From assembly GCF_030814015.1 (NCBI RefSeq), contig NZ_JAUSUL010000003.1:62001-126000 (forward strand): 64,000 bases of DNA, in the 5' to 3' direction. A model generated the notes under the pieces. It saw only the letters and a list, made by a program, of their open reading frames with translations. It was not told the DNA's origin and made no database searches. A program made the position numbers and the translations under genes. This document shows, piece by piece, positions 57,560-58,008 of this stretch; within the stretch, counting starts at the first letter, position 1; each line of letters begins with the position of its first letter. This stretch comes from Amorphus orientalis (lineage in GTDB: Bacteria > Pseudomonadota > Alphaproteobacteria > Rhizobiales > Amorphaceae).

Positions 57560-57590
57560 CGCTTTTGCGAGCCGGCGGAGGGACGGAAGG

Positions 57591-57742
57591 CAAAAAAAGA
57601 GGCGGCGCTCCCGAAGGAGCAGCCGCCTATTAAGTTAGACAATCTCGGAAAGACCAGCTCTCCGGATCGTCCACCTTCCAGAGGGGAACAGCTGCCTTCA
57701 TCAACGAAACGCAGGGAGGAAACGCGCTTCGTGTCATCCATC
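57591..57742 (-). ncRNA. Candidate trans-acting sRNA with anti-Shine-Dalgarno loop
   Basis: Three hairpins can be drawn on the minus strand. The first has arms ACGAAGCGC (57732-57724) and GCGTTTCGT (57712-57704), and its 11-base loop displays TTTCCTCCCT (57722-57713), complementary to ribosome-binding sites. The second joins CAGCT...CTCTGG with CCGGAG...AGCTG (57694-57655). The third is a Rho-independent terminator: stem GGCGGC(T)GCTCC/GGAGCGCCGCC, then TC and seven T (57598-57592). TTTCCTCCCT is, as I recall, the invariant motif of the alphaproteobacterial MmgR/alpha-r8 sRNA family that controls storage-granule proteins. The start of the transcript is not fixed. The remaining part of the gap 57560-58008 shows nothing else. 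Confidence 0.65.
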
Positions 57743-58008
57743 AGCTGAGTGGAATTTGGACTTTTCGCGCTGCACAAACAAGGAGCACCAGTGCATGCCT
57801 GTCATGCAATCCATGCATCGGCATTGATCATGCCGGGGGCCGATACCGCTTTCGTTCACCTCTCATCGATCGATCGTCCCGGCTGGGGGCAGCACCGGGA
57901 GCCGTATCTTGCCCGCATGGACGGAAGCCGGGCAGTCACACCACCCAGGCTTCAATCCCTTGAGCAGGTTCCTTCGTCCGGCTCCGTCGGCCGCGTCAGG
58001 AACACGCG

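Follow-up and report, generated by a model that had tools for sequence, protein, structure and literature searches.

Does the unit of about 158 nt on the minus strand at 57749-57592 of the window (the whole 64,000-nucleotide stretch of Amorphus orientalis DNA analysed here) represent an independent small RNA gene, and if so, to which family does it belong and what does it regulate? An earlier note, made from the letters alone, had described a 9-bp hairpin with an exposed loop motif, a second hairpin and a seven-T terminator, all of which we found in the sequence and by folding: the unit has three hairpins, of which the first exposes UUUCCUCCCU in its loop and the last is a terminator ending in U7 (Table 1). 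The unit is slightly larger than the about 150 bases suggested there, with the 5' end near 57749 and not at 57742; this end is deduced from conservation and promoter spacing, and the 3' end is taken as the U-run.

The inner stem of the first stem-loop (SL1) has 9 bp (ACGAAGCGC/GCGTTTCGT, one G-U pair) and carries an 11-nt loop, GTTTCCTCCCT (57723-57713), within which TTTCCTCCCT exhibits a mean unpaired probability of 0.93; an outer CAGCUG...CAGCUG stem closes SL1. The loop carries UUUCCUCCCU as the first anti-Shine-Dalgarno motif (anti-SD1), and the linker to the second stem-loop (SL2) carries GUUCCCCUC and the second motif (anti-SD2, UUCCCCUC), whose mean unpaired probability in the fold is 0.68. 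The extended 18-nt anti-SD2 block is unpaired at 0.44 on average, so according to the model it may be partly self-paired. Before the terminator, where an A/U-rich single-stranded stretch was looked for, lies CUAACUUAAUA (mean unpaired probability only 0.43). The terminator itself consists of a hairpin at 57628-57600 and seven T at 57598-57592; it was not listed by a simple terminator scan, and a hairpin with a T-run, judged by a loose script criterion, is present in 36/36 distinct relatives (described below). Folding of 57590-57742 yielded -60.3 kcal/mol (z = -2.75), with 2 of 200 shuffled sequences equally stable. A conserved small protein was also considered and rejected: the single frame open through the unit (frame 2) is interrupted by a stop in A. 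coralli and is thus not a conserved coding frame.

Table 1. Features of the putative AbcR locus (coordinates of the window) and, in the last two lines, suhB/MmgR matches elsewhere in the same genome
Feature	Position	Strand	Evidence or remark
AbcR-type sRNA	57592..57749	-	folding; kept in A. coralli; model R1 90.1 bits (training sequence itself)
Outer SL1 stem, 5' arm CAGCUG	57742..57747	-	four-sequence and A6 alignments
Inner SL1 stem, 5' arm	57724..57732	-	double-sided changes at 8/8 modelled inner pairs, 36 distinct sequences
Anti-SD1 UUUCCUCCCU, SL1 loop	57713..57722	-	mean unpaired probability 0.93; equivalent of aSD1 (PMC8844928, available passages)
Inner SL1 stem, 3' arm	57704..57712	-	covariation, same 8/8 inner pairs
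Outer SL1 stem, 3' arm CAGCUG	57689..57694	-	four-sequence and A6 alignments
Anti-SD2 UUCCCCUC inside conserved CAGCUGUUCCCCUCUGGAAGG	57681..57688	-	same as S. meliloti aSD2 (PMC8844928, available passages)
SL2 hairpin, sequence variable among relatives	57632..57676 (about)	-	folding
Rho-independent terminator hairpin and U7 tail	57592..57628	-	sequence and folding
-10-like element CCAAAT (weak match)	57754..57759	-	identical hexamers and spacing in A. coralli
-35-like element CTTGTT	57777..57782	-	17-nt spacing to -10-like element, as in published PabcR1
Perfect palindrome TGCAT-N7-ATGCA	57792..57808	-	opposite strand reads GCAT-N3-TG-N3-T, the published LsrB/VtlR consensus
RF00519 (suhB/MmgR) match L087	G000:C4:132192-132267	+	75.5 bits
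RF00519 (suhB/MmgR) match L088	G000:C1:1418186-1418265	+	53.3 bits

The layout, with anti-SD1 in the loop of SL1, the block CAGCUGUUCCCCUCUGGAAGG with anti-SD2, a second hairpin and a terminator, corresponds to that of the AbcR (alpha-r15) family. According to the available passages of PMC8844928, AbcR1 and AbcR2 of S. meliloti present anti-SD1 in the loop of the 5' hairpin and anti-SD2, UUCCCCUC, between SL1 and SL2; the motif M2 of Brucella, GUUCCC (PMC5461406, in the part available), is contained in UUCCCCUC with its preceding G. With the AbcR1/AbcR2 RNAs (RF02345) of Sinorhizobium, Agrobacterium and Brucella the Amorphus RNA shares three hairpins, of which the last is in our case a Rho-independent terminator, anti-SD1 in the SL1 loop, an identical anti-SD2 in a conserved block, a U-rich terminator, an LsrB/VtlR-type box at about -60 to -43 and transporter-rich candidate targets. 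It differs from them in length (~158 nt vs 114-121, with longer SL1 and SL2), in the sequence at the M1 position (CUCCCU vs CUCCCA) and in having one significant copy, which lies away from lsrB and scores under the RF02345 cut-off. The anti-SD2 block and closing stem are of the AbcR kind, as are the LsrB-type box and the lsrB-type neighbour in relatives, and we assign the window RNA, with a probability of about 0.86, to an AbcR (alpha-r15 type) sRNA gene, apparently single-copy, putatively regulated by LsrB/VtlR and acting on the ribosome-binding sites of uptake genes. No report of AbcR in Amorphus, nor one joining Amorphus with a small RNA, was found among the literature listings and passages available.

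The Rfam model RF02345 (ar15) assigns only 18.9 bits to the window RNA, i.e. the gathering cut-off of 40 is not reached, so membership rests on intermediates, motifs, the three-hairpin fold and the box. The same model finds three clear AbcR copies in genome G031 (112–127 bits) with the same core, and sub-threshold matches (29.9–34 bits) on relatives in G019, G027 and G032. Our own covariance model R1, built from four sequences (the window, A. coralli G001, G019 and G022), recovers the three G031 copies, and the sub-threshold RF02345 matches fall on R1 loci, which links the window RNA to accepted AbcR members via intermediates. The best ar15 score in the window genome (22.9 bits) lies elsewhere, at C4:44692; this locus (L113, G000:C4:44692-44800, plus strand) is an RNA-like unit with a terminator, scores 27.7 bits with suhB and is preceded by TTAACCATGCGTTAA, which we take to resemble a CtrA site.

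A 241-base query against 41 genomes returned one strong match besides itself, in A. coralli (E = 2.4e-29), the only same-genus genome in the set, and short matches in five order-level genomes (E from 1.6e-4 to 9.9e-4). Two of the latter (L003 and L005) contain the same core and adjoin a LysR-type gene, which we take to be of the LsrB/VtlR type from the start of its sequence, a label that draws also on gene order and on similarity between relatives. R1 matches across the order, in 119 of 397 genomes and 45 of 141 genera at E<=0.001, the four training genomes included. The compensatory stem changes on which that note had made its proposal depend are present in SL1. In the alignment A6 (39 R1 matches from 38 chosen sources, 36 distinct rows after removal of three duplicate modules) 93.9% of cells are paired, 10 of 14 pairs changed on both sides, including all 8 pairs of the inner stem in some sequences, and the covariation score of 0.407 exceeds that of shuffles (0.149 +- 0.012; 0/500 as high), figures that lean toward the SL1 structure to which A6 was fitted. 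A four-sequence MAFFT alignment (A4), made without structure fitting, exhibits double changes at 6/14 pairs. SL1 is thus supported by covariation, and the remaining fold is predicted.

The window genome (G000) contains one significant R1 match, the next (E = 0.09) being the leader of a candidate target; alpha-r15 RNAs are always multicopy in Rhizobiaceae and Brucellaceae according to the available passages of PMC3712013. In the genus g70, eight genomes hold a second, lower-scoring R1 match, and two of these second copies (L208 and L227) have no LsrB-type gene nearby; perhaps they correspond to the AbcR sibling known from related bacteria. The sister genus g2 (G002–G009) has no R1 match at E<=0.001 in 8/8 genomes, and it retains the LsrB-type gene in 7/8. 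Among its weak R1 matches (E<=1), the four of eight loci inspected (L057, L058, L060 and L061) do not look like AbcR, and the two anti-SD motifs never occur together in six g2 lsrB regions. Loss or strong divergence of AbcR in this genus is possible.

The palindrome upstream of the unit begins 59 bases before the sRNA module and has zero mismatches in the window genome; it is perfect in both Amorphus species, which differ in its spacer. The LsrB/VtlR consensus, GCAT-N3-TG-N3-T (PMC7486931 and PMC8844928, in the passages available), is read in the window genome on the strand opposite to the sRNA. For PabcR1 the available part of PMC8844928 gives CTTGAC-N17-CTATAT and an LsrB box at -61 to -49. 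A generic scan for sigma-70-type promoters found none for the sRNA unit. Among the 36 distinct relatives the palindrome, defined after it had been seen, is present with <=2 mismatches at -62 to -58 in 32, vs 0.84% of 3801 background windows; the exceptions are L034 and L035 (3 mismatches there), L018 (none) and L025 (2-mismatch forms only, at other places). The published consensus, fixed beforehand and sought on either strand, occurs in 22/36 relatives vs 0.18% of background windows, counting L031 and L032, where it sits about 20 bases further out.

In the available passages of PMC7486931, vtlR has trxB on one side and the abcR genes on the other. The LsrB-type homologue of the window genome (G000:C1:622634) possesses LysR domains, shares 72% identity with the G019 homologue and adjoins a thioredoxin reductase gene (TIGR01292 above cut-off), and among the best 25 NCBIfam models none above cut-off names it LsrB/VtlR. 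The sRNA, at C3:119674, is on a separate contig, flanked by an MFS transporter gene upstream on the same strand and by TauE, Alph_Pro_TM and DUF3429 genes on the plus strand, and the 10-kb stretches around lsrB in both Amorphus genomes contain no AbcR core. An LsrB-type gene lies within 1.5 kb of 28 of the 30 listed R1 loci, many of the 28 coming from few genera; the two exceptions are the Amorphus genomes. An overlapping set of named-genome loci has it in 13/14 (one truncated at the edge), all but that of A. coralli, and of ten other loci it is missing from L002 (A. coralli again), L009 (a draft contig), L010 (in G027, where lsrB lies 25 kb away) and L013 (an extra copy). To represent other genera, 40 more loci were taken, and three second copies were excluded from them, leaving 37 first-copy loci; 25 of these have an LsrB-type gene within ~4 kb on either side; two of the remaining 12 (L218 and L220) end on short contigs, where linkage cannot be judged. 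The split is therefore not unique to Amorphus, as abcR and lsrB are separated also in g20, g57, g46/g71/g84 and g130 (for L207 in g130 the sRNA motif was not detected by the script). Location beside lsrB is common among relatives, but not universal.

The earlier note had suggested a possible relative of MmgR (alpha-r8), perhaps forming a new subfamily; such an RNA might target messages for phasins or storage functions. The string GUUUCCUCCCU in the loop is indeed common to both RNAs, as is a Rho-independent terminator, RF00519 places the 3' half of the window RNA at 19.1 bits, and a partial homology of AbcR to SuhB has been described (PMC7143759, in the part available). However, 19.1 bits is far under the cut-off of 41, this weak match leaves out the anti-SD1 loop, and the genome has two separate RF00519 members, both with the MmgR-like CUUGGGCGUUUCCUCCCU, on which grounds we discard this identity. 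MmgR is a 77-nt RNA whose model lacks the anti-SD2 block and the CAGCUG closing stem; that block agrees with AbcR, as do the LsrB-type box and the location of relatives beside an lsrB-type gene, and the greater length, which had suggested the new subfamily, comes from extended SL1 and SL2 stems in what is still the AbcR layout. We regard an MmgR relationship as highly improbable. NfeR1 (alpha-r14, RF02344), which shares an anti-SD loop and three hairpins and matches weakly across the whole unit, is very unlikely to be the right family: 15.8 bits compare with a gathering cut-off of 58.8, and, while anti-SD motifs are present in all loops of NfeR1 (PMC7143759, in the part available), the predicted SL2 and terminator loops of the window RNA lack the CCUCC motif and its conserved core is that of AbcR. 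The conserved linker with anti-SD2 and the lsrB-type gene next to relatives likewise speak against NfeR1. The unit might also be no gene of its own but the processed 3' end or read-through terminator of the MFS gene, which is on the same strand and has its stop codon (58009) 260 bases upstream of the sRNA, i.e. ~380 bases from the terminator hairpin, just as the earlier note had measured. In A. coralli that side is occupied by a TrmJ/SpoU-type methyltransferase gene on the opposite strand, with the sRNA and the promoter box kept, by which origin from the MFS 3' UTR is rejected as very improbable.

Another alternative accepts the descent from AbcR, but supposes that in Amorphus the control by LsrB has been lost and the box is a relic. 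The Amorphus gene is not beside lsrB, and in g20, where lsrB is not nearby either, the palindrome has 3-4 mismatches in 5/5 newly fetched loci and 2 in G027. A perfect palindrome in both Amorphus species despite the differing spacer argues against it, as do the loci of g57 (L192), g71 (L193) and g84 (L212), which keep perfect palindromes with no lsrB within ~4 kb; that of g46 (L213), also without lsrB nearby, has 2 mismatches. We consider a relic box improbable, though with a real if small chance, and favour an AbcR gene still under the control of LsrB/VtlR.

Candidate targets were sought as complements of the two motifs in front of start codons. The complement of anti-SD2, GAGGGGAA-N2-10-ATG, occurs at 10 sites in the window genome (reversed pattern: 3), 8 of them with frames of >=60 aa; 4/8 are parts of uptake transporters (DctP, NMT1_3, a branched-chain ABC ATPase and BPD_transp_2), and the other four comprise a DUF3137 and a MerR protein, an RND efflux pump and a frame of 75 aa not assigned to any family. 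The 9-mer complement of anti-SD1, AGGGAGGAA-N2-10-ATG, occurs at 12 sites (reversed: 1), half of which precede solute-binding proteins (two DctP, two NMT1_3, OpuAC and Peripla_BP_6), and the remaining six precede enzymes or a pyrophosphatase pump. The Shine-Dalgarno control AAGGAGAC yielded 24 sites (reversed: 4), of which 20 have frames of >=60 aa and one encodes an ABC protein. Uptake transporters thus make up 10/20 of the sites for both motifs vs 1/20 of the control (Fisher P = 0.0017), a comparison with a small control, chosen only after the anti-SD2 sites had been read. A. coralli has 14 anti-SD2 sites, nine with frames of >=60 aa and three of these transporters (Fisher P 0.076 vs the window-genome control). 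In G019, 20 of the 38 pattern sites are one and the same string, GAGGGGAAGGATG, which includes four facing pairs ~146–199 bases apart and so suggests a repeated element; the sites of this genome were therefore set aside as evidence on targets in either direction.

An ABC solute-binding protein gene (NMT1/THI5-like, G000:C3:60.4 kb) carries in CCACCTTCCAGAGGGGA a 17-nt perfect complement of the anti-SD2 block over its Shine-Dalgarno sequence; about 0.09 such matches per genome are expected by chance for the whole sRNA, assuming uniform bases. This leader was first noticed as a weak R1 match (L068, E = 0.09), after which similar sites were sought. An 18-mer search of the window genome found 9 places with <=3 mismatches (reversed: 3), namely the sRNA gene, the NMT1/THI5-like gene (1 mismatch) and seven with 3; at a limit of 2 mismatches, the first two alone remain. 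The duplex energy of the whole sRNA with this leader (-87.4) ignores self-folding and was set aside. The proposal of the earlier note that this is a small RNA gene aimed at ribosome-binding sites agrees with the conservation, the covariation, the conserved promoter box and the transporter-enriched candidate sites; judging from these sites, the sRNA probably silences genes for nutrient uptake by masking the ribosome-binding sites of their messages.

We infer transcription, LsrB binding and target repression as parts of the following mechanism. The LsrB/VtlR-type LysR regulator, encoded on another contig, would activate the sRNA's own promoter once bound to the palindrome that begins 59 bases before the module. 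The RNA is predicted to form SL1, whose loop presents anti-SD1, then a linker in which anti-SD2 is partly open, SL2 and the terminator, and, as in the AbcR literature, it would probably work with Hfq. Both motifs could then pair with messages for ABC- and TRAP-type uptake systems, solute-binding proteins and other components alike, at their ribosome-binding sites, which, on the model of published AbcR mechanisms and the sites found, would block translation and might be followed by mRNA decay. In the Amorphus lineage the gene is found away from its usual place beside lsrB, with the site of the regulator kept.

This analysis would add a marine lineage, in which the Rfam ar15 model misses its cut-off, to the rhizobia, Agrobacterium and Brucella from which the AbcR riboregulator is known, and offers concrete candidate targets, one of them perfectly complementary over 17 nt at its ribosome-binding site. 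A broader scenario, to which we give somewhat less than an even chance, is that AbcR genes left lsrB several times in the order, with the box kept by selection, and that the single relocated AbcR of Amorphus shifted its regulon toward TRAP-type systems (DctP and NMT1_3, the latter presumably TAXI-like) besides ABC systems, forming a marine version of the network known from plant- and animal-associated relatives. The lineage would then provide a natural test of whether a regulator and its target gene stay coupled via a kept binding site once they are no longer neighbours.
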